The notes under the pieces were generated by a model. That model was not told the origin of the DNA and searched no databases. It saw only the letters and a program-made list of their open reading frames with translations. Positions 1 through 19,324 of a stretch of 64,000 nt of DNA are shown one piece after another. The DNA comes from Lachnospiraceae bacterium (GTDB lineage: Bacteria; Bacillota; Clostridia; Lachnospirales; Lachnospiraceae). The stretch's first letter is position 1, and each line of letters starts with the position of its first letter. The translations under genes and the position numbers were made by a program. The stretch is taken from positions 62,001-126,000 of the forward strand of contig SVFH01000007.1 of the NCBI GenBank assembly GCA_015056945.1, in the 5' to 3' direction.

Positions 1-2778
1 CTGATTTACCCTTGGCAGTTCATAGGATACCTTCTGAGGTTTATAATCACTTTCAAATTTCTCAAACTGGCATAATACAGCTTCTACCCAGTCATTTTGA
101 TAAACCGCAGCTACACCACGAGGAAGTTTCGCCAATTCATTGATTTGCTCGTCGTTCAATGCTGCTGCTTTTCCCACTAGTAATCTATCCTCTGCGTCCG
201 GAAGTCTGAGAATAATTTTAGTGTTGGTATTTCTGATTACTGCTTCATCCAGTAATCCTGGAGCTTGATCTGCAATAATAAACCCTTCACCGTATGTACG
301 CATTTCTGCGATAGAATTGGTCAGCATTTCCACAGACTTACCTTGTAAGTTTGCACTATCCTGTCCCTGTCCAAAAGAAGTCCTTCTCAAAAGATTATGT
401 GCCTCTTCTATAACTGTCACATGTTGCAGATCCTCATTCATTCCAGAAAAACTCATATGATACTCTTGAAGTTTCATTATCAGAAGTCCCATCAACAATG
501 CTTTAGTTTCTGTCGAGCCCACTCTGCTTATATCAACAATAACATTCTGTTCAAACAAATCTTCATTTGAAAGCTCCTCACTGCCTGAAGCACATAACAC
601 AAGACCATTAATACCATTTGTTAAAGATTTTACTCTTGTAACTAATGCACCCGAATAATCGCTTTGCGTATTCTTTGAATATAATGAATTATTCATAACC
701 TCCGGTAAAGTTGTCAGCAAATCAACAAACGTCGGAAACTTGATTGGATGGCATTCACTAGTATATAAATTCCAGCCTTTATTAATATATGCCTTTTCAA
801 TCGCATCCTTTAGCACCGCAGGCATAGCTGCATACATAGGCCAACAAGCATTTAAAATCTCTATCAAACGGTCTATATGTTCCAATACATGAATAGGTTT
901 CTCCACCCCTTCACCTGTAGGAAATGAAAATGGGTTTATACGAAGGAGTTCTGATATCTTCGGATTCGTACCATATGTTTGGCAATAACCACCAAGTGCA
1001 AGCCTATATTCACCCTTTGCAGGCTCAATAACCATTACCTTTTTATCCAGTTCTAACAAACCACTTAATATCTGATATACCGTATTCGATTTACCTGTTC
1101 CTGTAGAACCAGTTATAAATACATGAGAAGTTAAGCTATTTACATCTAGTTTTACTCTCTGCTTCTCTGCACGATACATATGCACCACATTTCCAACATC
1201 AAGAATCGTTTCATTCTCATCGTCAGAAACATTTGATACATTACCTTTTACCCCCGACACAGAAAACTTCTGTGTTTCTCGTCCAAATGAAACGCTTTCA
1301 ATCACAGGAAAACCAGCAACTGATTTCCTCGGGAAATTCAATGCTCTTACTAATTCCTTACCGGATACTAAAGTATGTAAGCTTGTATTTGCCGGAAGCA
1401 TCATTAAATCCGGATTTTTTCCACAGGCTTCTCTATTTAGCACAAACTGAGGATGCTGAATTCTCTTTAATGTTTCCAAAATAACAGCTGCCGCATCCTT
1501 TCTTTTTGTACCATGCCAAAAATTAATTGCAGATTGAGATAAGTATGATTGTTCACCTTGTGTTAAAGCAAGATACATCGTTGCAACGTTATTAGTAATA
1601 ACTGAATTTTTAGAAACTGCATACGCTGCAAATTTCCACATACCCAAAGCAGAACACTCTTCTAAGCGTTTGTTTTTTTCTTCCAATAATTCAAGACTAT
1701 GCTTTACGGCATAATTGGTACAAGTTCTTGTTTCTCCTTTACTATTACCTACAGTAGTATTATAAGTTGCTGTCTTTCCAAAATTTTCACCAAAACTTAC
1801 ACCTGCATGAACAACACCTACTCCTACGCCTATGCTGCCGTTAATACTCTTTCCCAAAGAACTTCCTGCACCAATTGTAGTATTTTCCAATTCCGAATAT
1901 GTTTCCTGCCATGAAGCATATGGAGCCAAGCTATTATACATGTCATAAAGCTGGTTCTTCTGCATAGCAATATCATCTGATGGACTCGCCAAAAGAATCA
2001 ATCTATATTCCTGTCCCTCACTTTCCGGGACTATTCCATCTAACAACTTCTCCATACTTTGGCTTATAAAATTCTCCGATTTATCAGTTGCAAGATTCGT
2101 TACTATTGCGACTGATTCTGCTGATAGAATTTCATTGTTGTTCTTATAACGAACTACCTCTTTCAAGCAGTTAGGTATACCATATCCAAACCCCTTCTCT
2201 ACTGGGTCTGTCTTTTTTATTTCTGCTCCCGGGAAATTACCATAAATAGCTTCAATCACCCGATCTCTGAAATCCGAAGCGATATTCAGCATGTCACTAT
2301 TTCCTGTATTAGCAATAGCCATAGTAACTTTACATCCACTCATTTTCCTGTCATAAATCAACGCAATATTACATTTTTCATTTGCCAATACCTGATACAC
2401 GTTTACAAGCTTGTCAATATTCTTTTCTTCTGTGTCATTTACCCAACGAGTAATATCAAAATACACGATTCTATTAGCATCTCTAAAAGAAACCAAATCA
2501 TATGATGGTTCATACACTTCACTTACGTATGGTAAGTATGTATTATGTAACTTTATTCCCAATGCACCTAAAGCTTTTTCTTTATCAATCATGGCAGAAT
2601 CAGTCTTGGATTGAAAATATGCTCTTCTCAATTGTTCCAATTCTTCTTTTTGTTCTTTTCCCAGCTGACTCCTTGTTGCCAAATACCCAGCTTCCGCTTC
2701 CTGTATTTTATGGTCTATTTCTCGTGTCTTTTCTTGTACTTGATGAACCACTTGCTTTGCCTTGTTATGCTTGCCCAT
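1..2778 (-). CDS. HerA/FtsK-superfamily ATPase (DUF87-like), partial
   Basis: The reading frame is open from the ATG at 2778 to the left edge, so about 926 residues are visible and the C-terminus is missing. The start is chosen because GAGGTG lies six bases upstream; an in-frame ATG at 2784 has no room for a ribosome site. Residues 1-80 are charged and probably coiled coil. A Walker A motif, GSTGTGKSNT, lies near residue 556, and a Walker B, VTVIEEAHNL, near 790. The downstream stretch with IAEMRTYGEGF and RLPDAEDR is typical of HerA/VirB4-like hexameric ATPases. Such proteins move DNA or act as motors in defence systems such as HerA-SIR2 and HerA-DUF4297. It is the last visible gene of the WYL-GTPase operon, 24 bases after the membrane protein gene. 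The substrate is unknown. Confidence 0.85.
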   Translation of the reverse strand, partial: MGKHNKAKQVVHQVQEKTREIDHKIQEAEAGYLATRSQLGKEQKEELEQLRRAYFQSKTDSAMIDKEKALGALGIKLHNTYLPYVSEVYEPSYDLVSFRDANRIVYFDITRWVNDTEEKNIDKLVNVYQVLANEKCNIALIYDRKMSGCKVTMAIANTGNSDMLNIASDFRDRVIEAIYGNFPGAEIKKTDPVEKGFGYGIPNCLKEVVRYKNNNEILSAESVAIVTNLATDKSENFISQSMEKLLDGIVPESEGQEYRLILLASPSDDIAMQKNQLYDMYNSLAPYASWQETYSELENTTIGAGSSLGKSINGSIGVGVGVVHAGVSFGENFGKTATYNTTVGNSKGETRTCTNYAVKHSLELLEEKNKRLEECSALGMWKFAAYAVSKNSVITNNVATMYLALTQGEQSYLSQSAINFWHGTKRKDAAAVILETLKRIQHPQFVLNREACGKNPDLMMLPANTSLHTLVSGKELVRALNFPRKSVAGFPVIESVSFGRETQKFSVSGVKGNVSNVSDDENETILDVGNVVHMYRAEKQRVKLDVNSLTSHVFITGSTGTGKSNTVYQILSGLLELDKKVMVIEPAKGEYRLALGGYCQTYGTNPKISELLRINPFSFPTGEGVEKPIHVLEHIDRLIEILNACWPMYAAMPAVLKDAIEKAYINKGWNLYTSECHPIKFPTFVDLLTTLPEVMNNSLYSKNTQSDYSGALVTRVKSLTNGINGLVLCASGSEELSNEDLFEQNVIVDISRVGSTETKALLMGLLIMKLQEYHMSFSGMNEDLQHVTVIEEAHNLLRRTSFGQGQDSANLQGKSVEMLTNSIAEMRTYGEGFIIADQAPGLLDEAVIRNTNTKIILRLPDAEDRLLVGKAAALNDEQINELAKLPRGVAAVYQNDWVEAVLCQFEKFESDYKPQKVSYELPRVNQ

Positions 2779-2802
2779 ATGCATCACCTCAAATCTACTA
2801 TT

Positions 2803-3162
2803 TTAGGAATTACCACGTAATATACAAACAATAAATATTAATACTGTTATTGCTAATACACCGAACAATACTCCCCTGAATAATTTCTTTTTCTTATACT
2901 TCTGCGAATATACCTCTTCACTAACCTCTGCCATATACAAATAAAATTCTTTAGATGCCGCTCCTGAAGCACTCAATACTTCAAGTTCTTTTAAACTGTT
3001 ATTTGTCCATGGTTTTGGTTGCTTTTTTACCTCATAACTGTTAAAACACTCGTCACCATATTGTTTCGAAATACGTTCCAATTCGTTTTCAACATCCTTT
3101 TTCCCTATTTCACCTTTTAAGATTTTAGAAACTAATAATAATCGTTCCTCTCTTCCGCTCAT
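2803..3162 (-). CDS. Small C-terminal tail-anchored membrane protein, unknown function
   Basis: This 119-residue protein has a charged soluble N-terminal part and one hydrophobic segment at about residues 94-114 (GVLFGVLAITVLIFIVCIL), followed by only a few residues. That layout suggests a tail anchor with the bulk in the cytoplasm. Its ATG overlaps the stop of the GTPase gene as TAATG, and GAGGAGG sits just upstream, so translation is probably coupled to the GTPase. I do not recognise the family. Its place between a dynamin-like GTPase and a HerA-type ATPase suggests it tethers the complex to the membrane, which is inference only. Confidence 0.75.
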   Translation of the reverse strand: MSGREERLLLVSKILKGEIGKKDVENELERISKQYGDECFNSYEVKKQPKPWTNNSLKELEVLSASGAASKEFYLYMAEVSEEVYSQKYKKKKLFRGVLFGVLAITVLIFIVCILRGNS

Positions 3163-5666
3163 TACCGCACCTCCTCAAACTTCAACAATCCATCAATCAA
3201 TTCCAATTCAGATTGAATTACTTTACCCTGTTTGGATTTTGCTTCAATAATATCTTGCTGTTCATCTAACATTTTCTTCAAACGCGACAACTCTGGATTA
3301 AAAGATGATACTGTCGCTATAAGCTCAGTAATAATATTGTCACTCCATGCTTGAAACATTTTTTCATTATCAGTTGAAACTTTTTCGTTGCTACTATCAA
3401 TATCAACTCGTATAGAATCCTTGTATTTATTTTTAGATTCTGACTTGCTAATATGCGTAATATCCCATAGCACCCATAAAAATCTTTCTCCCTTATTTTT
3501 AATTGCTGAAGTACTACTTATATTCAACAACCTATGATTACTGGAAACCATAGCAACCTTAAGAACCACCTTTTTTAATATTTCCTTTTGCTCCTCGGTT
3601 AATGCATTACTTCCTACAACAATTTTCATTAGGGATTCTCTTAATTCCTCTGCGCATTCTTTCCAATATTTTTCTGTTTTTTCAGATGTTTCTTTAGAAT
3701 AAGCTCTCATATCTGCCTGTAATGCAGCCTCAATCTTTTGATTAAATGGTGTTAATTTCTCATAATCATTTTTCCCTTTACTTGTTTTATAAGCATCATT
3801 AATTATTTTTGCTATTCTATCATCATCTAAATATTTAGATACTACACCTCCTGTAATAGTGGCAACAAAATTACTAGTGAACTTCTTCTTTTTCGTATCA
3901 CATTCATCCCGAAGTCTTTGAATTAGTTCCTTTTTCTTCGTATCTAAATTCCTCTGGACATCTTCGCACAGTGCCTTTGCTTTACTCTCTGCTTCTCGAA
4001 CTTCTTCAGAAACCAAATTGCCTGCTTCACTCAAATACTGTATTGCCTGTGAGCACTTATTATATAACGCATATTTCTGTGCAAAAACACCAATCTCTTC
4101 TTCAACGCAAGGTATACCACTATTCCACAAGAGTAATTCTGCTTCGCTGATTTTCTTTATTCTCTCATGCATTCTCTCATAGACATCCGGTGGAAGAATA
4201 TTATACATAAATAATCTCAAATAAAACTCACTTTCAGTGTCTTCAAAATCTTCTTTGTTTTTCCGGAAAATATTATAGTATGTTGCATCTACCCAATTCT
4301 TTTTCTCCCTTGGATTATCTTTTTTTCCACCTAAACCAATTATAGAAGATACAAAATATATTCGATTTTTATTTCTTGTCAAAATCAAATTATTTTTATT
4401 TTCTACTTTCTTTTCTAAATCTTCTTTGGATTTTTCATCCGACCTATTAACAACCAATAACATATTTGAAGCATCTAATGCTCCTCCGAACTCATCAATA
4501 AGCTTAATAATTTCTTCGTTATCCGTTTGATCCATTGTGTCAGGATTTGTAACAAAAATCGGAAGACCATTCGTCTGCTGTTCCAGTGATACCTTTAATA
4601 TGTCTGCATGTTCTCTAAACATTACTGAATTAGAACCTGGGGTATCGTAAATAACAAACTTAAACGTCTCTAACGGTAAATATGAATGAACAAACTTGAC
4701 ACTCACCTCAATCACATCATCTAATTTATTGGGTTCCAACACTTTCTGCTTGATTAAATCATTTATTCGATATCTTCTCAACAATTTTTCTATTTTTTCA
4801 TCATCATTTTTTATCGTTTTAAGTTCGTCCACGCTTAGAATTTTATCTGCGCATTTAAGCAAGTCATCATGGCGACTTTTCCCTTCTTGCTTAGCATACT
4901 TATTTAATTCAAAAAGAGTCCAATACATAAACTGCGCCTCTGTTTTAGGGTCCTTTTCTGTTATACGTTCACTAATAAGCCTCATAATTTCACTGTTCGG
5001 ATTTTTATTACCTTTCCATTTGTTTCCATCAAAATCAATTCGATAATCTTCATTCTGGAAAGTAAACGAAATGCTGTGTTTTTTAGATTCTCGAATTTTG
5101 TAAATCTTTGCAGTCGCAGGATCTGAATCACTCTGCAAAATTTCTTGTCCTATCAAACTATTAATAAATGCCGATTTCCCGGAACTATATAAACCCATCA
5201 CACATATAGCAATTTCCGGTCTAACCGCTTCATTAAATTTATCGAGCTCTGCTTTTACTTTTTCATTATGAGATTTATTGAAAAAATCCTCTAAATTCTT
5301 AAATGACGTGTTAATCTGCGGGAAAACCTCTTTGGCATTCTCCATCTTTTTCAGACCGCGCTCAAGTTCTATTTCATACTCTGAAAAATACATTTCTTTT
5401 ACAGATACCATATCCGCAAAATCATCATCTGTACCTTCAAACAAAACCTTAATTCCTATTGTTGGATTGTATAATTTATCTTTAATCACTTTAAATATAT
5501 CATATGCCTTTTGAGATACTGACGATGAAATAAATTCATCGGTATTAAATGGTGAATCATCCATTTCTTCCATATCAGTCCACCTATTTTCACCCTCATA
5601 CCAATAATAATCAATATGCTTTCTGTATGGGTCGCCACATATTTTTATTTGGTTCTTTTCCATCAT
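3162..5666 (-). CDS. Dynamin-like large GTPase
   Basis: The 834-residue protein has the GTPase motifs in order: a P-loop GLYSSGKSAF near residue 160, the G3 motif DTPGSN near 342, and the G4-like NRSD near 408. After the G domain comes a long helical, lysine- and glutamate-rich region with predicted coiled coil to the C-terminus, the layout of bacterial dynamin-like proteins. The spacing between G1 and G3 (about 180 residues) is larger than usual. The first 90 residues form a separate module that also begins the neighbouring 605-residue protein. There is no obvious membrane segment, so the next gene product may supply the anchor. The start is preceded by AGGAG. Bacterial dynamins remodel membranes and some take part in phage resistance; the role here is inferred from context. 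Confidence 0.85.
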   Translation of the reverse strand: MMEKNQIKICGDPYRKHIDYYWYEGENRWTDMEEMDDSPFNTDEFISSSVSQKAYDIFKVIKDKLYNPTIGIKVLFEGTDDDFADMVSVKEMYFSEYEIELERGLKKMENAKEVFPQINTSFKNLEDFFNKSHNEKVKAELDKFNEAVRPEIAICVMGLYSSGKSAFINSLIGQEILQSDSDPATAKIYKIRESKKHSISFTFQNEDYRIDFDGNKWKGNKNPNSEIMRLISERITEKDPKTEAQFMYWTLFELNKYAKQEGKSRHDDLLKCADKILSVDELKTIKNDDEKIEKLLRRYRINDLIKQKVLEPNKLDDVIEVSVKFVHSYLPLETFKFVIYDTPGSNSVMFREHADILKVSLEQQTNGLPIFVTNPDTMDQTDNEEIIKLIDEFGGALDASNMLLVVNRSDEKSKEDLEKKVENKNNLILTRNKNRIYFVSSIIGLGGKKDNPREKKNWVDATYYNIFRKNKEDFEDTESEFYLRLFMYNILPPDVYERMHERIKKISEAELLLWNSGIPCVEEEIGVFAQKYALYNKCSQAIQYLSEAGNLVSEEVREAESKAKALCEDVQRNLDTKKKELIQRLRDECDTKKKKFTSNFVATITGGVVSKYLDDDRIAKIINDAYKTSKGKNDYEKLTPFNQKIEAALQADMRAYSKETSEKTEKYWKECAEELRESLMKIVVGSNALTEEQKEILKKVVLKVAMVSSNHRLLNISSTSAIKNKGERFLWVLWDITHISKSESKNKYKDSIRVDIDSSNEKVSTDNEKMFQAWSDNIITELIATVSSFNPELSRLKKMLDEQQDIIEAKSKQGKVIQSELELIDGLLKFEEVR

Positions 5667-5688
5667 TTTCTTCTGCTCCTAAATAATC

Positions 5689-7506
5689 TTATTTAACGGT
5701 ATTTGACATCCACCACTCTACTACTTCAGCTCCAACATGGCGTCTATCAGCTTCTTGGTATTTTGCACATATATCCTGCCATTCGTCCTTCTCATACACT
5801 TCAGCTAAGAGATTCAATAATTCTGATATAAAATCATTACTACCTAAAAATGCATACATTTTCTCTTCAAATGATGGTTTATTCAAAAAACCTACTCTAC
5901 TTATAAAACGTGACATCAACACCATGTATTCGCAAGTCAAAATAAATTTGCTGTCAATAAACAAATCGTGCAATTCCTCTTGATTCTTTTTAGTCGGCAA
6001 AATAAATGACCAATATTTTTCAGTTACTCCATGTAAAGCTGCCCAAAAACCACTCTTTTCATTATTCAATATTTCATATGGAATATACGTCTGCTCCTTA
6101 TATGCAAATTTTTCAATTCCCGCCATCTTTTGTGTATACTCTTCATCATACTGCTCCGACACTATAAGATATGGAAACATAACCATTTCCTCGAATTTGT
6201 CAGCCTCTTTTATAAAAATCTCTCCGGCTAACCAATCAAAGAAATTTTTTTCTATGGATGTCATTACACTTGTTTTTTCTGTTGCCAACTGCAATATCTC
6301 TATCAAGTCCTTAAACAGAATTGCCATATAGATCTCTTCCATTTGTACATCTAAAGTATTCTTCCACATTAACACTTTTTGTTTCAAATCTTCTAACGTA
6401 CCTTTGTCTGAATTGATAGCATACTCACATAATCTCCAAAACTCCTCATCGTCTTCCCCAACACATTCTGTAAATTCACTGCATTTAACCAATGCTGCCA
6501 TTGGATTATGTTTACTCATTTTAAGAAAATCTATCAGTATCTCACCATATAAATAGGTTTCCTCATACAACCAAGCTTCATTCTCCCAAATCGGAGAATA
6601 TTCATCACTCTCCGCTGTCTTTGCTCCCTTCATTTCATATAACAATTTCACAAAGTCATCACTTATTTTTTTGTCTCCCCAATAGCGAAAACTATTTCCA
6701 TTCGTATCCGATATAACTAATTCATTTTTTGACTTTTCCCTTGTGTTTATTAGTATATCTTCTAAACACAAATCACTATAGGACATAGATATCCATTCAT
6801 GTGAGTTAAGCTCTACATATAATCCGGCAATTGTAAAATATACAGAAAAACAATTACCCAAATATGCCTTTGGAACAATAAATCCAACATTCTCTGCCAA
6901 AGTTTTATAATCATTTAAAGTTCTTTTTGCACCATATCTTTCCAAAATGGTCAAAAGATTTTCCAAATCCTCAATACCAAAATCATCCTCAACTTCTTCT
7001 TTTTCCTCTTGCTCATTCACTAATACTTCGGTTTGCGACTCTTCCGCCTGCTGAACATCAACAACCTTTTCCGATTCATTCAGTTCCTCTGGTATAACCC
7101 TCTCTTTCTCATATGATTCATCCGAATTTAGTTCCTCTTCAGAAAGAGTTTCTTGGCCGACTTCCTCGTCTTGTTTCAAATCAATTTCTTCTATTGTTTC
7201 ACGTTCAATTTCTATGTCATATTCAGAAAAATCGCTTTTCCATATCTTCAACATTGAATCATACTCATCGTCGTTTCCTATAAATACAATCTTAATCCCT
7301 TCTACCGGATGGTAATAACTTTCTGTTATGACCTTATAAATATCATACGCAGCCTGAGTTATCGAATTGGAAATAAAACACTCTGCATTAAGTGGAGAAT
7401 CATCTCTCTCTGCCATATCGCTCCATTCTCCATTCTCACCGTACCAATAATATTCAATATGTTTTTGTTCTGAATTACTCCATATTTTAATCTGGTTTTT
7501 TGCCAT
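5689..7506 (-). CDS. 605-residue protein sharing the N-terminal module of the adjacent GTPase
   Basis: I do not recognise the family. Residues 1-90 match the N-terminus of the GTPase encoded just downstream: both begin M(A/E)KNQIKI, contain a YYWY motif and a DDSP motif, and share a segment with YDI(Y/F)KVI. Residues 115-185 are a very acidic, glutamate-rich linker. The remaining 420 residues have no GTPase motif and look globular and helical. The ATG at 7506 is preferred over an upstream start at 7557 because AGGAG stands just before it, because it leaves an 11-base gap to the regulator gene instead of an overlap, and because it aligns with the start of the GTPase. The shared module suggests both proteins bind the same partner or signal. 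Confidence 0.8.
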   Translation of the reverse strand: MAKNQIKIWSNSEQKHIEYYWYGENGEWSDMAERDDSPLNAECFISNSITQAAYDIYKVITESYYHPVEGIKIVFIGNDDEYDSMLKIWKSDFSEYDIEIERETIEEIDLKQDEEVGQETLSEEELNSDESYEKERVIPEELNESEKVVDVQQAEESQTEVLVNEQEEKEEVEDDFGIEDLENLLTILERYGAKRTLNDYKTLAENVGFIVPKAYLGNCFSVYFTIAGLYVELNSHEWISMSYSDLCLEDILINTREKSKNELVISDTNGNSFRYWGDKKISDDFVKLLYEMKGAKTAESDEYSPIWENEAWLYEETYLYGEILIDFLKMSKHNPMAALVKCSEFTECVGEDDEEFWRLCEYAINSDKGTLEDLKQKVLMWKNTLDVQMEEIYMAILFKDLIEILQLATEKTSVMTSIEKNFFDWLAGEIFIKEADKFEEMVMFPYLIVSEQYDEEYTQKMAGIEKFAYKEQTYIPYEILNNEKSGFWAALHGVTEKYWSFILPTKKNQEELHDLFIDSKFILTCEYMVLMSRFISRVGFLNKPSFEEKMYAFLGSNDFISELLNLLAEVYEKDEWQDICAKYQEADRRHVGAEVVEWWMSNTVK

Positions 7507-7517
7507 ACTTTTGTCTC

Positions 7518-8486
7518 CTACAAAATTTCTATTGTATTCCCCTGGCTCCTCAGCCACATATCAATTCCATCACCAAAGACTTCTGCTGTAATGATATATC
7601 CATCCTCGGTTTTCTCCTGTATCTGTGCGGTCGGTAAGCGGTCCAATACAGCCTCTACAGAATATCCGGTATATTTAAACTTCACCCTTCTTAACTTGCC
7701 TCCGTACATAAATTGGATACGCTTGCGGAACTCCCCTTCTTCAAATCGGTCCTTGTAAGGAACATAAAACTTTTCATCTAATACTTTCAGTTCCTGCAAT
7801 CTATCAATACGATAAATCGTCGGAAACGCATCATTCAGAACACTAAAGTTTTCCCTTACTTTTTCGCTGTCTATAAAAGCAACTAGGTAAAAATAATACT
7901 CTGAAAACATAATAGCCAATGGCTTCAGTTTTCTCGTTTTTACAGTACTGCCTTGAATACCCTGATACTTAATTTCAATATATTGGTTATTATGTATCGC
8001 CTGTCCAATCTCCCATAAATTATCCGTTACATCTACTCCATGTCTCGGCTCTACATAATGGAACATTTCATTTGCTATCTGTTCCTTAATCATCTTCTGA
8101 CTATCAGCCGGGGCGCTGCACATAATGATTTTCTTTAACAAATTCTGCATTTCATCCTTCGGAAAAGCTCTGCTATCCAATAAAATTTTACTGAGTGCCA
8201 GCAACTCACTATTGGTCAGCTTCAGCAAAGAAATCTTTTCCAATCGGTATCCTTTTCTTTCACGATCATATATCACCGAATGCTGATAACCTTCCTGAAT
8301 CAGGTTGTCCTGCATATAATTACGAATATCATCTATATCTCTTTGAATACTTCTTTCATTGACACCAAATTGTTCTGCCAGCTCCGACTTACTAACCAGT
8401 CCTCCATCCATAATTTTTGAGTATATATAGAGAACCCGTTCAATCTTATCGGTGTTCTGAATATCTTTTTTGTTTTCCGTATTCAT
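7518..8486 (-). CDS. WYL-domain transcriptional regulator (HTH-11/DeoR-like N-terminus)
   Basis: The 322-residue protein has an N-terminal winged helix-turn-helix at about residues 15-70 (segment LVSKSELAEQFGVNERSIQR) and a WYL domain at about 150-225 (segment IKYQG..GSTVKTRKLKPLAI). It ends with a typical C-terminal extension. WYL regulators commonly control defence islands and respond to nucleic-acid or nucleotide ligands. The ATG at 8486 is chosen because GAGGTG lies five bases upstream; a GTG at 8492 overlaps that ribosome site. It is the first gene of the five-gene operon and the palindrome at 8537-8549 lies in its promoter, which suggests autoregulation. Confidence 0.88.
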   Translation of the reverse strand: MNTENKKDIQNTDKIERVLYIYSKIMDGGLVSKSELAEQFGVNERSIQRDIDDIRNYMQDNLIQEGYQHSVIYDRERKGYRLEKISLLKLTNSELLALSKILLDSRAFPKDEMQNLLKKIIMCSAPADSQKMIKEQIANEMFHYVEPRHGVDVTDNLWEIGQAIHNNQYIEIKYQGIQGSTVKTRKLKPLAIMFSEYYFYLVAFIDSEKVRENFSVLNDAFPTIYRIDRLQELKVLDEKFYVPYKDRFEEGEFRKRIQFMYGGKLRRVKFKYTGYSVEAVLDRLPTAQIQEKTEDGYIITAEVFGDGIDMWLRSQGNTIEIL

Positions 8487-8518
8487 ATTCACACCTCACT
8501 ATCTTTGTTCTTGTGTTT

Positions 8519-8550
8519 ATTGTAGTCATTACCTTAGACAGATTCTGTCA
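8519..8550 (-). promoter_or_regulatory. Promoter of the WYL operon with palindromic operator
   Basis: On the minus strand a -10 TACAAT (8519-8524) lies 17 bases from CAGAAT (8542-8547). The latter is the centre of the 13-base palindrome GACAGAATCTGTC (8537-8549). The same arrangement occurs at 17144-17174 and 17830-17860. The CAGAAT is a poor sigma-A -35, so the site may be bound by an activator or by a repressor. The 331 bases between the WYL gene and the next gene hold this site, a terminator at 8754-8777 and no gene that I can support. Confidence 0.65.
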
Positions 8551-12900: not shown

Positions 12901-13263
12901 TTATTCCAAAAATTCTAATGCCCCATTTGGCAGGTCTTCACTCTTTTCAGGCAATTTGCTCTCATCACCAATCGCTATCATTGGTATCCCTCCACTTGTA
13001 CCAGCTATTCCAGATAGAATTGCTCCCACCAGTTTCATACCGGACTCCTGCATTTCTTCCCTGACAACTGCTATAATTTTATCCTGTAACCCATTACTTT
13101 GGTCTGTATGTTCCTGTCTATTATAGGAATCTTTTACCCTTGCTTTTACAACGGAGGCTAAGGAGGCAGACGAGCCAGCCTCCAGCTCCAATCGTTCATA
13201 AAGTTCCATATCCTCTCTGCTGTCTGCATGGAAACGAATACTAATAACTTTTTTACCTGCCAT
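12901..13263 (-). CDS. ParR-like segregation adaptor (probable)
   Basis: The 120-residue protein starts with a short ribbon-helix-helix-like stretch (KKVISIRFHADSREDMELYERLE), followed by an alanine/serine-rich segment, a helix and a tail with a glycine-rich part. Its ATG overlaps the stop of the actin-like gene as TAATG, so the two are co-translated. The second gene of a ParM operon normally encodes the DNA-binding adaptor ParR, and this protein has the right size and a basic DNA-binding-like N-terminus. The assignment is by position and general shape, not by a strong motif. The TGCTACA repeats just downstream are candidate binding sites. Confidence 0.6.
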   Translation of the reverse strand: MAGKKVISIRFHADSREDMELYERLELEAGSSASLASVVKARVKDSYNRQEHTDQSNGLQDKIIAVVREEMQESGMKLVGAILSGIAGTSGGIPMIAIGDESKLPEKSEDLPNGALEFLE

Positions 13264-14189
13264 TATGCAACCCTCTGCTTTCTTAACATCTGCTCTGCAA
13301 GAAACTCGTAGCCTTTCGCATTCGCAAGAATATCACAGTCATAAGCAATATTTTCTTTTGCTTCTGTAAAATTCTTTACAGTAACAGCACCTCCACCCAC
13401 ATAGATAACATTGGTGTACGTCAGGTCAAATTCTCGTTCCTCCAATTCCAATATCAAAGCTTCAATCTGTTCTGCAATACCGGCACGAATATGATTGATA
13501 AAAGATTTTGGCAGACTGCTACCCTGTTTTAGAATGACTTTCAGTATTTCGTTTTCAGGAATATTTTTCCCGTATTGTATCTGCAAACTTCCCTGTATCT
13601 GACGTATCCATTTTACCATAGCTCTCTCTATCGTGATGGATTTGCTTTCTACCGGAAGACCATTACGAATGTAAATTACATCCGTCGTCTTACTTCCAAT
13701 ATCCACTACCAGATAGTCCTTTTTCATGTTGCTAAGCCTTTGAGCAATGGCAGAATAGCACTGAGGGAACACAAATACTTTGCTAATTGTAATATCGTAT
13801 TTCATACCCTCATATTCATATTTCAGAACTGGTTTCTGTTCATAATATTGTATCAGACCTTTCTTCTCCCTACCATAGTCAGAAAACGGAAGTCCAACAG
13901 CCAATATTACTTCTGCCTTTGTTACACCGATAGCTGTAAGTTCCTGTGCGATTGCTACCATAGTCAACAATCTCGCATTTTCATCAGATACCTTATCCTC
14001 TGTAATCGCAGCCCTGCCTTCCGCTACTTTATAAAATTTTCTTTCAAATTTCAATGAATGCTCTTTGATAGATGGTTCTACCTTGCCTAATGGAAAAACA
14101 CCATTATCAAACATAAAATTGGCTGTCTTTCCAAACTGGTATCCATTATCGAATCCAATAATATATTTCCCGTTATCCAGCTTAATCAT
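13263..14189 (-). CDS. ParM/StbA-like actin-fold segregation ATPase
   Basis: The 308-residue protein has the actin/Hsp70 nucleotide-site motifs: phosphate 1 IIGFDNGYQFGK near residue 9, phosphate 2 VVDIGSKTTDV near 160, and the adenosine motif IYVGGGA near 262. This pattern and length fit ParM/StbA-like plasmid segregation filaments. The ATG at 14189 is preferred over one 12 codons upstream because AAGGA lies at the right distance. It is followed at once by the ParR-like gene and preceded by a terminator that separates it from the lipoprotein gene. Such pairs maintain plasmids or the circular form of integrative elements. Confidence 0.82.
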   Translation of the reverse strand: MIKLDNGKYIIGFDNGYQFGKTANFMFDNGVFPLGKVEPSIKEHSLKFERKFYKVAEGRAAITEDKVSDENARLLTMVAIAQELTAIGVTKAEVILAVGLPFSDYGREKKGLIQYYEQKPVLKYEYEGMKYDITISKVFVFPQCYSAIAQRLSNMKKDYLVVDIGSKTTDVIYIRNGLPVESKSITIERAMVKWIRQIQGSLQIQYGKNIPENEILKVILKQGSSLPKSFINHIRAGIAEQIEALILELEEREFDLTYTNVIYVGGGAVTVKNFTEAKENIAYDCDILANAKGYEFLAEQMLRKQRVA

Positions 14190-14219
14190 TCTATCACGTC
14201 CTTTCCTTACAACGCAGAA

Positions 14220-14251
14220 AATCACCAGATAGATTGCTCTACCTGATGATT
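14220..14251 (-). terminator. Terminator or structured element between lipoprotein and parM-like genes
   Basis: On the minus strand a 14-base stem with two G-U pairs (AATCATCAGGTAGA with TCTATCTGGTGATT, loop GCAA) is followed by TTTTC. It lies 40 bases past the lipoprotein stop. The T-run is short, so it could also serve as a parC-like structure. Confidence 0.6.
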
Positions 14252-15582: not shown

Positions 15583-15969
15583 TTATTCGGGATACATTTC
15601 AGCAAAAGCCTTCATTCTGTCTACTATTCCGCTTACATTTGCCATCATCATCTTATCTTTTCTCATAGCCGCTTTTGCCTTTTCAATTTCCCGAATTGTC
15701 TCTGCTTCATCTCGACATTTTGTTTTTTTCGCTATTTCTGCATATTCCATAAAACAAGCTCCATATAACAAAAACATATACACTCTTTTTACTTTTACAT
15801 AACGAAAAGAAAACAACTGTTTTTCTGTAATTTTGTACCAGAAAAGTACTTCCTTTAACAGTTCCTCCTGTTTAAATGGTTTTGAAAGATACCCACGTAC
15901 ATCCATTTGAGCATCCAATAAAATATGAATACATGCTTTCTTTTTATCCGTTGGTTCTAAACATTTCAT
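15583..15969 (-). CDS. Uncharacterised 128-residue protein
   Basis: No family recognised. The protein is basic, with CMEYAEIAKKTKCRDEAE in the middle and a methionine-rich helical C-terminus; a short stretch (AQMDVRGYLSKPFKQEELL) faintly resembles the end of a response-regulator receiver domain. Its ATG lies inside the end of the 388-residue gene (26-base overlap), preceded by AGGAGG six bases upstream, so the two are translationally coupled. The pair probably acts together. Longer upstream starts lack a ribosome site. Confidence 0.7.
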   Translation of the reverse strand: MKCLEPTDKKKACIHILLDAQMDVRGYLSKPFKQEELLKEVLFWYKITEKQLFSFRYVKVKRVYMFLLYGACFMEYAEIAKKTKCRDEAETIREIEKAKAAMRKDKMMMANVSGIVDRMKAFAEMYPE

Positions 15970-17110
15970 ACATATCCTCCTCGAAAGTTGTTTCTTCAAT
16001 TCCTCTTACCTTTTGATACAATCCTCGTAACAACAGATACGCAGAACATGTCAAAAGTGTCATCAGTGCTGCTGTAGCGATGACACCCCATATAGGTATC
16101 TCGAAATCACCCATATGATTTACAATGGTCCATCCTACCATCTGCATCAAAAACACGCTTCCATAAAAGACGCCAAGTAGTATTGCCCTAATCTTTCGCA
16201 AACTTTTCACTTTACGTTTTGCCTCCTGCTTTTTGCCCCTGTATTCATCACACAAAAACTGTAAATCACTAAGTCCGCCTTTCCCTAATATCAGATTCTG
16301 AGCACAATATAATATTTCCTTTTTCTCGTCCTCTTCATCCGGTGTAGCGTATTCCAAATCTACAATTCTTACATGCTCATGTCCAAATCTGGCAGAAGCA
16401 TAAACGTAGGCTACTCTTAAAGAATCATCCGAATAATCTCGATATGTATGTGTCTGTTCCGTAATATCATCTTCCCTGTTACACTCTACAATTCCTACTT
16501 CATCACCCAACCTGTCATTGTACTTCGCTCTCACAAAATCTCCATTACTGAACGGATGCGGTATCTCCACATAAGCGTTTTCAAATCGCTCCCTATCGTT
16601 TTCCGGCTTCTTCGCTGTCCATTCCGCCTCCCTACTATAAAAGCCTTGTATGACTCCCTGCTTATCGAAACACACGGTAGCTTTACACTCTAAATAGCAG
16701 TCATCTTCTTCATCACCACTGCCGTCAGGCACCTTATAAATCGTAAAATTTTCATTTCTCTTCTTACCACATTCAACTGCTTCTTCCCCTGTTTTATAAC
16801 ATCCGTATTCGCGAGTTTTTCGTTCCTCCGAATCATATACATATAATTCAAAAACATAACCAGCACTGTTCTCATAAAATCTTCTAAGGCAAAGTTCATC
16901 AAATGAAAGCCTGTCCTGAATTTCTTCTTTCAAATCAGCATCCTGCGTTATGTCCATTAACTCTTTCAGACATTCTCTTATTTCAGCGTGACTCATCCCG
17001 GAATGGTTGTAGATAAGTGTAGCTTTTTCAAAATCGGACAATACCCGTCCTTGCTTCTCCATATATTCTCTTACATCTTTAGATGGTATCAGCTTTGCTG
17101 TTTCTATCAT
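15944..17110 (-). CDS. Uncharacterised 388-residue protein with two C-terminal membrane segments
   Basis: The N-terminal 280 residues look soluble and acidic: a helical start (residues 1-70), then beta-rich stretches with FELYVYDSEERKTREYGCY and a later HTYRDYSDDSLRVAYVYA. Two hydrophobic segments follow at about 305-330 (AILLGVFYGSVFLMQMVGWTI) and 340-362, and a short acidic tail. AGGAGG stands eight bases before the ATG. I recognise no family; it seems to be an element-borne cytoplasmic sensor or scaffold held at the membrane by its C-terminus. Its promoter carries the GACAGAATGTGTC palindrome, so it is probably co-regulated with the WYL operon. Confidence 0.75.
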   Translation of the reverse strand: MIETAKLIPSKDVREYMEKQGRVLSDFEKATLIYNHSGMSHAEIRECLKELMDITQDADLKEEIQDRLSFDELCLRRFYENSAGYVFELYVYDSEERKTREYGCYKTGEEAVECGKKRNENFTIYKVPDGSGDEEDDCYLECKATVCFDKQGVIQGFYSREAEWTAKKPENDRERFENAYVEIPHPFSNGDFVRAKYNDRLGDEVGIVECNREDDITEQTHTYRDYSDDSLRVAYVYASARFGHEHVRIVDLEYATPDEEDEKKEILYCAQNLILGKGGLSDLQFLCDEYRGKKQEAKRKVKSLRKIRAILLGVFYGSVFLMQMVGWTIVNHMGDFEIPIWGVIATAALMTLLTCSAYLLLRGLYQKVRGIEETTFEEDMYEMFRTNG

Positions 17111-17143
17111 AAGAATCGCCTCCTCTATCTGTTATTTAATTCG

Positions 17144-17174
17144 ATTATATCCGTCTACATAGACACATTCTGTC
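17144..17174 (-). promoter_or_regulatory. Promoter of the 388-residue gene with shared palindromic operator
   Basis: On the minus strand TATAAT (17144-17149) lies 17 bases from CAGAAT (17167-17172), which is the centre of GACAGAATGTGTC (17162-17174). The arrangement is the same as at the WYL promoter. Confidence 0.68.
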
Positions 17175-17199
17175 ACTCTTCTTAAAAAGGTCAAAAAAT

Positions 17200-17236
17200 A
17201 CAGCTATAAATTTCCTAACGGATTCTCTATAGCTGT
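17200..17236 (-). terminator. Terminator of the 192-residue gene
   Basis: The stem ACAGCTATA / TATAGCTGT starts within the stop codon of the gene and is followed on the minus strand by TTTTTT. A closely similar terminator ends the fic gene. Confidence 0.8.
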
Positions 17237-17805
17237 TCTCTATACTGAATAATAATCTCAGCACACAATTCCTCCAGTACCAAATCTACACCATATTCTG
17301 TTTTTATCATTTCCTCCAGCAGTCTGCATAAGCCGTTCCTACAATTATTCACTATATTGACTAGCAGACAGATTTTCATATCATTAGGCAAGGTTTTATC
17401 TACCGTTTGCAGGACTGGTCGTATCACCGAATGAAAATATGGATTTTCACACTCTCCCTCATACGAGAAGAGTAATTTATAAATATCCTCATAAGTAACA
17501 TTGCTAACCTCTACGTAAATTTCCAACTGGCTTTGCACCGACTTCACAATAATATTTTTTAGTAGCATACAAAAGTCCGCACTTACTAACCGCTTCTGTA
17601 AATATGCCAGGACAATAGCCTTCATCCAACCTGTCCGAAAAACATAAACCAATATGCTTTCAAAACTCTCTTTAGGTATTACCTTAAACATACTTGAAAT
17701 CAAACTCCACAAATCTGTTTTACCATTTTCAGATTTGCTTAATGCCTTTTGAATATTCGCAGAATCATATCCTGATACACAAATCGAAAAACCTATACCA
17801 TTCAA
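17227..17805 (-). CDS. Uncharacterised 192-residue protein
   Basis: No family recognised. The protein is helical and leucine-rich, without signal peptide or clear membrane segment, and ends with VDLVLEELCAEIIIQYREQL. The start is a TTG at 17805: GGAGGG lies seven bases upstream, an in-frame stop lies just before it, and no ATG fits. It stands alone between its own promoter, which carries the shared GACAGGATGTGTC palindrome, and its own terminator. It is therefore a single-gene member of the presumed WYL regulon. Confidence 0.7.
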   Translation of the reverse strand: MNGIGFSICVSGYDSANIQKALSKSENGKTDLWSLISSMFKVIPKESFESILVYVFRTGWMKAIVLAYLQKRLVSADFCMLLKNIIVKSVQSQLEIYVEVSNVTYEDIYKLLFSYEGECENPYFHSVIRPVLQTVDKTLPNDMKICLLVNIVNNCRNGLCRLLEEMIKTEYGVDLVLEELCAEIIIQYREQL

Positions 17806-17926: not shown

Positions 17927-18547
17927 TTATATATCTATTGCATCATATACAATTTTCTCTAAATACTCTTTCTTAGAGAAATCACTACCATCAGAAAAAT
18001 AGGCATTATAAGCAACAAGTGCTGTTCTGACATATCTGCTGTTTTTTTCAAACAACTCCCTGTTTATCTTCAATCCGATTTCATCTGCGTACTGACAACA
18101 GAATGTAATAGTTGTACGAGTATTACCTTCTCTGAAAGGATGTACTTTCCATAATTTTGCTAAAGAATCACAAAATTCGTCTGCTGCTTGTTTCCTATCC
18201 ATCTCTTTCCATTTTTTCTGTCTCATATCAGACAAAATATGATGAATATCATTGGTAATATCAAATGGGTCCGAATATTCTACTGACATTCCTCCCAATA
18301 CGTCTTCTTCCTTGTAAATAGATATAATACGAGGTTCGCCTGCCCATTCATATAAATCTTGAAATATATAATAGTGCATTTTTAAAAGATGCTCTGTATT
18401 ATATTTCCCCAGCATTGGATTCAATGCTAAGTCCTTTAAACGAAAGACTACATAATCGGCTTCTGCCTCATCTAATTCTTCCTGCGTCTTTATATCCAAC
18501 TTATTTTTTAGCACATAACTGTTTTCATACAAATACGGATCACGCAT
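17927..18547 (-). CDS. fic: Fic/DOC-family AMP-transferase toxin
   Basis: The 206-residue protein carries the Fic active-site motif HPFREGNTRT near residue 136, with the catalytic histidine and the anion-binding EGN. The flanking helices, including DLYEWAGEPR near 68, are typical of the VbhT/Fic class. Fic enzymes transfer AMP from ATP onto target proteins; VbhT-type toxins modify DNA gyrase and topoisomerase IV. The ATG overlaps the end of the small upstream gene by eight bases, as in vbhA-vbhT pairs. The pair probably acts as a stabilisation (addiction) or defence module near the right end of the element. Confidence 0.9.
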   Translation of the reverse strand: MRDPYLYENSYVLKNKLDIKTQEELDEAEADYVVFRLKDLALNPMLGKYNTEHLLKMHYYIFQDLYEWAGEPRIISIYKEEDVLGGMSVEYSDPFDITNDIHHILSDMRQKKWKEMDRKQAADEFCDSLAKLWKVHPFREGNTRTTITFCCQYADEIGLKINRELFEKNSRYVRTALVAYNAYFSDGSDFSKKEYLEKIVYDAIDI

Positions 18548-18942: not shown

Positions 18943-19242
18943 TTAAGAAGCAGTCTCATAGTAGGACACAAAATATTCTACCGCATTCTCCGGAAAAAAT
19001 TCTTTAAATTCGCTGTAAAGCTGCGCGGCAAGAGTCTTATTGTGCGCAATAATCAATGTGGGAAGATTCATGGCTTGTATAACATTTGCCATGGTAAAAG
19101 TTTTACCGGAGCCGGTAACACCAAGAAGCGTCTGAATCTGATTCCCTTTCTGAAATCCTTTCACAAGCTCGGATATCGCCTGTGGCTGATCTCCTGTCGG
19201 CTGATATTCACTATGAAGTTTAAAGTTCTGCTGTCCTCTCAT
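18943..19242 (-). pseudogene. uvrB: UvrB N-terminal fragment interrupted by the mobile element
   Basis: The open frame gives 99 residues. It matches the start of UvrB, the excision-repair helicase: [11 protein letters not shown] (Q motif), Walker A GVTGSGKT near residue 40, [10 protein letters not shown], and [14 protein letters not shown]. It then departs to ETAS and a stop. UvrB is normally about 660 residues and continues here with the beta-hairpin region YDYYQPEAYVP, so the break is at the start of that hairpin. GGAGG precedes the ATG at 19242, and the native promoter is intact. The rest of the gene should lie beyond the other end of the element, left of the window, unless it was lost. 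The fragment alone cannot work as a repair protein. Confidence 0.93.
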
Positions 19243-19284
19243 AGACTCCTCCACTAAAAAAGCATGCACGGATACACTTTTTTC

Positions 19285-19324
19285 ATTATAGCACATCCGC
19301 ACATGCTTTGCAAACACTTGTTCG
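19285..19324 (-). promoter_or_regulatory. SOS-regulated uvrB promoter with LexA (Cheo) box
   Basis: On the minus strand TTGCAA (19308-19313) and TATAAT (19285-19290) are 17 bases apart, with an extended TGC before the -10. CGAACAAGTGTTTG (19311-19324) fits the Firmicute LexA box CGAACRNRYGTTYG and overlaps the -35. A 14-base inverted repeat (AAGCATGTGCGGAT with ATCCGTGCATGCTT) flanks the -10. The promoter now reads through the uvrB fragment into the element. Confidence 0.85.

Follow-up and report, generated by a model that had tools for sequence, protein, structure and literature searches.

What is an operon for that places a dynamin-like GTPase beside a HerA-type ATPase? Such an operon lies at the left end of a 64,000-nucleotide stretch of DNA from a Lachnospiraceae bacterium (here called the window; C26:62001-126000 of a 2.7-Mb draft genome in 48 contigs that is 88% complete), where a sequence-only reading had recognised five genes, for a WYL regulator, a protein of 605 amino acids (aa), the GTPase, a tail-anchored membrane protein and the ATPase, and had proposed that they form a defence system. 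Extending the contig to the left, as that reading had advised, completes the ATPase (1062 aa, its gene ending 411 bases outside the window) and brings in a toxin gene and an immunity gene beyond it. As these two genes follow HerA directly, the operon has seven genes and not five, in the order WYL, 605 aa, GTPase, tail-anchored protein, HerA, nuclease and immunity. Since most of the relatives that we read likewise close with genes for a nuclease toxin and its immunity protein, defence does not hold as the main reading, and an antiphage role of the operon is weakened. The operon apparently belongs to a polymorphic toxin system with undescribed machinery, and the finding that the gene set is widespread and usually includes an exchangeable DNA-cutting toxin with the antidote to it suggests a new way of delivering toxins to rivals. 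We found no description of the system in openly licensed PubMed Central papers (preprints were outside the search), and within that scope the earlier claim that the combination is undescribed stands.

The seven-gene operon and its apparent core

Open reading frames (ORFs) and Pfam domains confirm the five genes, their shared minus strand, their positions and the intergenic gaps of 11, 22, -1 and 24 bases that had been claimed, and with them the single operon. The gaps are valid given a HerA start at the ATG at 2778, from which the product begins MG like its relatives (an in-frame GTG lies 9 bases upstream). The 5' part of the gene for this HerA/VirB4-like ATPase occupies positions 1..2778 of the window and matches DUF87/HerA at about 50.2-50.7 bits (23.2; Pfam scores are given in bits with the family cut-off in brackets); it stops at C26:61590 and its product has a Walker A motif, GSTGTGKS, at 560 and a Walker B-like motif, VTVIEEAH, at 790 (numbering from the upstream GTG). 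The 343-aa nuclease toxin is encoded on the same strand at C26:60562-61593, outside the window, its longest ORF sharing 4 bases with the end of HerA. It carries seven tandem 16-aa repeats at residues 35-146 with the core LPEIEDF or a variant of it, followed by a C-terminal WHH/HNH nuclease domain (WHH 32.7 (25.1), Colicin-DNase 25.4 (25)), and a sequence comparison with the PDB gave no match at E 0.1. The SUKH-6 immunity gene comes after it on the same strand, at about C26:60027-60566 (SUKH_6 63.4 (27)). On the other side of HerA, likewise on the minus strand, lie the genes for the 119-aa tail-anchored protein (2803..3162), whose single C-terminal hydrophobic segment reaches a maximum 19-residue hydropathy of 3.07 at residue 97, and for the 834-aa GTPase (3162..5666; Dynamin_N 48.4 (27)). 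This GTPase has a bacterial dynamin-like G domain, as the Dynamin_N score, the G1, G3 and G4 motifs and the match of its profile to the bacterial dynamin-like protein 2j68 (E 2.6e-14) all indicate. The 605-aa protein (5689..7506) begins with the same N-terminal domain as the GTPase (profile E 1.2e-18, residues 3-103) with no G domain recognised, and the WYL-domain transcriptional regulator (7518..8492; WYL 36.3 (21.8), HTH_11 26.1 (25)) is the operon's first gene. A Pfam scan of the 605-aa and 119-aa proteins found no family above cut-off.

We looked for relatives in 299 genomes of the family and in a phylum-wide sample of 398. A homologue of the window GTPase occurs in 7/299 family genomes, its own included, and every complete GTPase relative (5/5) shows the order GTPase, HerA, nuclease and immunity, the cassettes being WHH/Colicin-DNase with SUKH or DUF6985, or Endonuclea_NS_2 with a YezG-like protein. 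A HerA profile matches 28/299 family genomes at E 1e-60. In the 20 genomes where the match is below 1e-200 a recognised toxin adjoins HerA in 15, comprising six with the window-type GTPase, G049 and eight more. Among the eight weaker HerAs, that of G107 has an adjoining GTPase match and a toxin match to the LHH cluster, and the other seven (L156-L162) gave no toxin-profile match. Phylum-wide this HerA was found at 1e-150 in 3/398 genomes, again with its own included.

A scan with one genome per species returned at least 529 HerA relatives, of which the best 80 were read; together with the viral contig L106 these make up a wider set of 81 loci, which overlaps the family sample, since four of its loci, L028, L073, L086 and L097, correspond to the family records G049, G213, G210 and G009. 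The best 80 belong to Bacillota (68), Actinomycetota (6), Spirochaetota (2) and Bacteroidota (1, a draft genome), with 3 unassigned, and their hosts include Lachnospiraceae, Oscillospiraceae, four Streptococcus species and a Bifidobacterium. By profile scores, a dynamin-like GTPase is encoded no more than four genes upstream of HerA in 68/81 loci and GIMAP-like GTPases in 7/81, which puts one or the other type upstream of HerA in 75/81; the remaining contexts are other proteins (5/81) and a contig start (1/81).

The N-terminal ~110 residues of the window GTPase are shared with the 605-aa protein (49% identity, E 3e-29), and a profile of the GTPases' first ~120 residues finds an upstream match in 73/81 loci; among the eight loci where it does not, the upstream part is incomplete in six, though not in L052 and L065. 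The same profile matches the first (~280-aa) protein of the GIMAP variant and the GTPase-less upstream proteins of L043-L045, and among the plasmid members described below it matches the Lactococcus dynamin only, weakly (E 4e-4). Judged by such profile matches, the constant core looks like the N-terminal domain plus HerA, more than the G domain. The expectation of the sequence-only reading that its genes be conserved together thus stood for the GTPase with HerA, and it failed for the five genes as a unit. WYL was found in 12/87 and the 119-aa protein in 7/87 contexts (L026-L112), in a BLAST search with the window proteins of four upstream genes that misses dissimilar tail-anchored proteins, and the C-terminal part that the 605-aa protein does not share with the GTPase recurs in just 1 other of the 299 family genomes. 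For that reason we rejected the 605-aa protein as a core component; it is an element-specific accessory. The other genome (G031, L190) has a 605-aa-like protein directly before a surface-protein-like gene, with no GTPase or HerA between, and this stretch looks like a related element. A similar surface-protein-like gene of 756 aa with an Asp/Ser-rich region lies downstream of the immunity gene in the window's own genome (L003:12557-14827). A search for a solved-structure relative of the 605-aa protein gave a best match of E 0.016, which we rejected, and the plasmid records searched for it contained none.

Toxin and immunity cassettes and the N-terminal tag

For the tag and toxin analyses we excluded from the 87 contexts L108-L112 (sister or partial HerAs), L030, L041 and L067 (no or doubtful same-strand downstream gene) and L107 (a copy of L106), leaving 78 loci, or 79 toxins with that of the window; the pairing analysis covered 70 of these and the window (71). 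The toxin ORF overlaps the end of HerA in 66/78 loci, by 1 or 4 bases in 44, where longest ORFs were used and larger overlaps may reflect start-codon artefacts. Pfam at E 0.001 assigns the 78 genes after HerA to Colicin-DNase (29), WHH (28), Endonuclea_NS_2 (22) and Endonuclease_NS (8), and more rarely to LHH (4), HNH (2), Ntox15 (1) and Col-Pyo_DNase (1), families that overlap. The 71 next genes give YezG-like (19), DUF6985 (17), SMI1_KNR4 (11), SUKH_6 (9), SUKH_5 (8), PoNi (2) and Tdi1_C (1), the 'immunity' gene of L029 being in fact a detached WHH nuclease module. Clustered by their last 125 residues, the 79 toxins form 10 groups, of which three have a single member. Of the seven larger clusters, the largest (WHH) goes with two immunity clusters and each of the other six with a single one; the mutual information is 1.75 vs a shuffled maximum of 0.63, to which the three singletons contribute no information. 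The C-terminal toxin domains therefore differ among relatives, and a matching immunity gene lies immediately downstream. A search for immunity arrays turned up isolated extra immunity-like genes only, in L029 and L109. Moreover, 76/79 toxins are without a strong hydrophobic segment, and Pfam found no LXG domain among the 78.

The N-termini of the toxins carry a short, often repeated tag, and three tag classes cover 59/79 of them: 'NFKxIKPE' (28), 'FDPDKR' (16) and 'LPxEIG' (15 assigned). For these same 59 rows, which match our regular expressions (regexes), tag class changes 4 times on the HerA tree vs a mean of 25.8 and a minimum of 20 in 200 shuffles, whereas toxin cluster changes 24 times vs a shuffled mean of 33.5 and a minimum of 28. 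In one pair of HerAs that are 92.6% identical the toxin classes differ and the tag class is the same, and LPxEIG and FDPDKR are each found with six toxin clusters and NFK with three. Since GIMAP- and dynamin-type loci both have NFK and LPxEIG tags, the tag appears to go with HerA and not with the type of GTPase, as far as five GIMAP loci can tell. The window HerA groups with the LPxEIG loci, and the repeat core of its toxin, LPEIEDF, appears to be a variant LPxEIG motif, though no regex matches it.

A profile of one tag matched 4/299 family genomes, all of them HerA-positive, three of the four being in the profile itself. In 20 system genomes it gave 25 matches, 20 toxins and 5 metallopeptidase-like proteins, of which 21 are in the profile itself and 4 are new to it. 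Orphan tagged cargo elsewhere in these 20 genomes was rejected, all 25 matches lying at the operon by coordinates. The metallopeptidase-like protein (~230 aa, with a HELRH motif) is encoded by a further gene after immunity in 13/81 loci (within L060-L106), usually with a ~98-aa partner, as at L097:13630-14585; DUF6782 scores just above cut-off in L060 and below it in L097. Several copies bear the NFK tag, and the five found with the tag profile have no match to the toxin C-termini. The pair is possibly a second cargo or a processing enzyme, and a mark that is specific to HerA clades and in some loci common to toxin and metallopeptidase-like protein suggests a cargo signal.

The more distant HerAs L150 and L162 are followed, by eye, by C39-like peptidase genes, one with N-terminal PQ-x-Y-like repeats, and these are perhaps a peptidase cargo. 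The sister HerA systems L109-L112 lie on viral contigs. L109 has several downstream genes with a common 'KLER' motif, one of them in toxin cluster 2 and followed by its immunity cluster, and in L110-L112 Hsp70- and DnaJ-like genes, recognised by eye, accompany a protein of 522-525 aa that starts similarly (that of L110, which was scanned, has a Big_2 Ig-like domain).

Proposed mechanism and its rivals

Taken together, the gene order, the classes of toxin and immunity protein and their pairing, the co-inheritance of tag and HerA and the linkage of one tag to the locus describe a constant machine with a clade-specific tag, a swappable nuclease and a matching immunity protein, which is the polymorphic-toxin pattern. 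We consider it probable that the operon encodes a polymorphic toxin and its immunity protein together with HerA/GTPase machinery of their own for loading or export, export being the part that we infer. The constant part would be the HerA/VirB4-superfamily ATPase and a protein that has the ~100-residue N-terminal domain and, in most cases, a dynamin-like GTPase joined to it, and the variable part the tagged nuclease toxin with its immunity protein. The tag on newly made toxin may be bound by the HerA motor, which is probably a hexamer, or by its partner domain, and repeats would suit a ring-shaped HerA hexamer. The GTPase may act at the membrane, directly or via the tail-anchored protein, and could remodel it or gate the exit, and the toxin would then be delivered to neighbouring cells, whose DNA would be cut unless the matching immunity protein were present. 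More tentatively, and as a proposal that we would sooner doubt than assert, a HerA-type hexamer that reads short repeated tags may, with a dynamin-like GTPase instead of a classical channel, export DNase toxins between bacteria. That machine would span Bacillota, Actinomycetota, Spirochaetota, an E. coli conjugative plasmid and one Bacteroidota draft, with a sister branch in which Hsp70/DnaJ-like chaperones replace the GTPase. If true, this would add another delivery route to the limited set of polymorphic toxins, assign a definite role to bacterial dynamins and provide a short tag open to testing; the question can be addressed in tractable hosts that carry the system (Streptococcus, Bifidobacterium, and Lactococcus and E. 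coli plasmids).

Known systems share parts of this arrangement. Polymorphic toxins as presented in the excerpted text of PMC3482391 are alike in their variable C-terminal nucleases, adjoining immunity gene, trafficking-linked N-terminal region and SUKH immunity. However, none of the routes given there (type II, V, VI and VII secretion, the last with the FtsK/HerA-like YueA, PVC, TcdB/TcaC, PrsW and MuF) combines a HerA ATPase, a dynamin-like GTPase and a short-motif tag. The E. coli LeoABC system (PMC4159319, in part) is alike in its paired dynamin-like GTPases, its mobile island and toxin release possibly via vesicles, and is thus a precedent for dynamins aiding toxin release; three plasmid-borne relatives here have two tandem dynamins as LeoABC does. 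That part of the paper names no HerA ATPase or nuclease-immunity cassette, and most GTPases here add the conserved N-terminal domain. In antiphage systems of the SIR2-HerA type, as far as the excerpts we have describe them, a HerA-superfamily ATPase likewise adjoins an effector gene, whereas the HerAs here mostly measure 1000-1250 aa and have an additional N-terminal region and a Ser-rich stretch, the effector has an immunity gene and a GTPase is usually present. The type VII secretion system (T7SS; EssC/LXG) also has an FtsK/HerA-superfamily motor, whereas the operons here have one DUF87 ATPase, no LXG match and, in its stead, a dynamin-like GTPase (of the T7SS subunits, EssC is the one that was sought by its own model). 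Nuclease toxins with related immunity families are known from T7SS. The best partial NCBIfam matches of the five ATPases scanned are CedD (NF053655) at 84-98 bits and ser_rich_anae_1 (NF033849) at 35-111 bits, far below their cut-offs of 600 and 650, and no NCBIfam model covers these five above its cut-off. Other assignments that we tried and rejected are HerA-NurA repair (NF040819, 52.2 bits vs 970, with no NurA match by Pfam among the operon proteins), type IV secretion or Ced (CedD 83.7 bits vs 600, VirB4_plasma 26.2 vs 590) and DynA as the direct family, where the score is far below the curated cut-off. The available excerpts of PMC7159879, PMC9503650, PMC12629846 and PMC12926258 do not describe the system.

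Several observations weigh against an exported polymorphic toxin. No channel, uptake route or component crossing the cell wall was recognised, which makes export the weakest link of the proposal, and by hydropathy (median maximum 1.41 for HerA and 1.18 for the GTPase) neither protein has a segment that clearly spans the membrane. In G065 (L023) a GTPase fragment and WYL pieces lie on a short contig with no HerA, and 5/20 of the strong family HerAs have no recognised adjoining toxin: G250 has a repeat-bearing peptidase-like gene by eye, in G092, G194 and G253 nothing was recognised, and in G298 the contig edge is reached. As for the tag, 20/79 toxins, the window's included, match no tag regex, and since the regexes were derived from the same data, their control (means of 0.4, 0.5 and 2.0 loci in shuffled N-termini; 0, 0 and 3 in the final 100 residues of the toxins) serves as no more than a sanity check. 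Toxin class is clustered on the HerA tree too, if far less than the tag, and close HerAs may have different tags (L060/L080, 77.5% identical, and L076/L088). Every toxin that Pfam matched is a nuclease, as an intracellular effector could also be, a two-gene HerA-endoDNase conflict system is mentioned in the excerpted PMC9503650, and the window's genome carries an EssC-like gene. Lastly, a PADLOC scan of 114 flank proteins from 24 loci chosen from the 87, with 25/145 matching families listed, shows BREX and type IIG/restriction genes beside some loci among the matches listed, and L022 has by eye an SMC-like Wadjet-type gene and a McrB-like gene (1065-4313 and 15622-17796). The check for defence-island neighbours proposed with the earlier reading thus found such genes beside some loci.

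An antiphage system acting by abortive infection, in which HerA and the GTPase sense infection or membrane damage and free the nuclease from its 'immunity' antitoxin so that the infected cell is killed or the phage DNA cut, draws on these flanking genes and on the restriction of Pfam-matched toxins to nucleases. WYL regulators are common in defence loci, and PADLOC includes WYL models. Described or proposed conflict systems pair HerA with SIR2 or nucleases, and dynamins are a listed defence class, according to excerpts of PMC9503650 and PMC12926258 and of PMC12629846 and PMC12926258, respectively. We nevertheless think this explanation unlikely: HerA scores 52.1 bits against a cut-off of 800 for the antiphage model NF042943 and 25.7 against 850 for NF042944, both rejected as its equivalogs, and an effector acting inside the cell would not require the toxin to be exchanged together with its matching immunity while the machine stays constant. 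Moreover, the immunity families include ones named for exported toxins (YezG-like immunity, PoNi and Tdi1 of type VI secretion), and the HerA-clade-specific tag, partly common to the metallopeptidase-like protein, suggests cargo.

It is improbable that the nuclease-immunity pair serves the mobile element itself, enforcing its retention or killing recipients or rival elements during transfer with HerA and the GTPase as accessories. The window operon does sit within a ~38 kb element, apparently inserted in uvrB, that also has a relaxase-like and a ParM-like gene, and 9/10 of the plasmid records matched are conjugative or mobilizable (five are near-identical Lactococcus plasmids). However, contigs of 0.2-1.7 Mb hold many of the loci (for example in Streptococcus sanguinis, S. 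rubneri, S. porci and Thermophilibacter), where integrated elements are possible, and a two-gene toxin-antitoxin would be enough for retention, leaving a 3-kb ATPase gene and a GTPase unexplained. Still another account, export of the toxin by T7SS or Sec with the HerA-GTPase pair merely processing or storing it, strikes us as very improbable. Similar nuclease and immunity families are T7SS cargo, and EssC is above cut-off in 4/30 system genomes, with long split matches in 3 more (the window genome included) and partial ones of 186-267 bits in 2. Yet the other 21/30 give an FtsK-like EssC match only (at most 129 bits; several genomes are incomplete), so that T7SS is unlikely as a general exporter. 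Most of the toxins have no signal-peptide-like hydrophobic start, and membership in T7SS itself was rejected given so few EssC matches above cut-off and the absence of LXG. We therefore retain as the preferred explanation a polymorphic toxin system with machinery of its own.

Mobile element, plasmid relatives and neighbouring genes

The operon had been placed on a mobile element, and the genes around it agree with this. The ~38 kb element appears to be inserted in uvrB: a full 681-aa uvrB gene stands to its left and adjoins two genes that look integrase-like by eye (C26:40409-45187, L191), and at its right edge (18943-19317 of the window) is a 124-aa 5' remnant of uvrB, with DNA 75% identical over 270 bases. 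A ParM/actin-like gene with a small partner (window 12901-14225; MreB-like_C and ALP_N above cut-off) and a MobA/VirD2-like relaxase match (L003:11590-12108, above cut-off) make the element look plasmid-derived and mobilizable.

Among plasmids, which we checked for HerA similarity, toxin profiles and a C-terminal hydrophobic segment in the protein before HerA, pTW10590_133 of E. coli TW10590 (IncI-gamma/K1, conjugative) encodes two dynamins, a hypothetical protein, the ATPase, an HNH/ENDO VII nuclease and SMI1/KNR4. At megablast sensitivity it is the one record with the operon among 5426 complete E. coli genomes. The dairy plasmid p158B of Lactococcus cremoris has WYL, two dynamins, two hypotheticals, the ATPase, HNH and a hypothetical, and pTS2 of Treponema saccharophilum has WYL, two dynamins, a hypothetical, DUF87, HNH and SMI1/KNR4. 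On all three the slot before HerA holds a protein with a C-terminal hydrophobic segment. Exiguobacterium acetylicum p1 has the ATPase, HNH and SMI1/KNR4 with no annotated dynamin, and in Ruminococcus albus pRUMAL01 and Acinetobacter piscicola the HerA relatives come with neither an annotated dynamin nor a nuclease that was recognised. Phage records contained two unannotated fragments with HerA and none with the GTPase of L073.

Four WYL matches in the flank scan are probably the operons' own regulators. Beside another relative lies, by eye, a large repeat-type ATPase-like gene (L018:9006-11039), and the surroundings of L018 and L022 hint at defence-island neighbourhoods. Near the right end of the window's element is a Fic/DOC-family gene (window 17927-18547).

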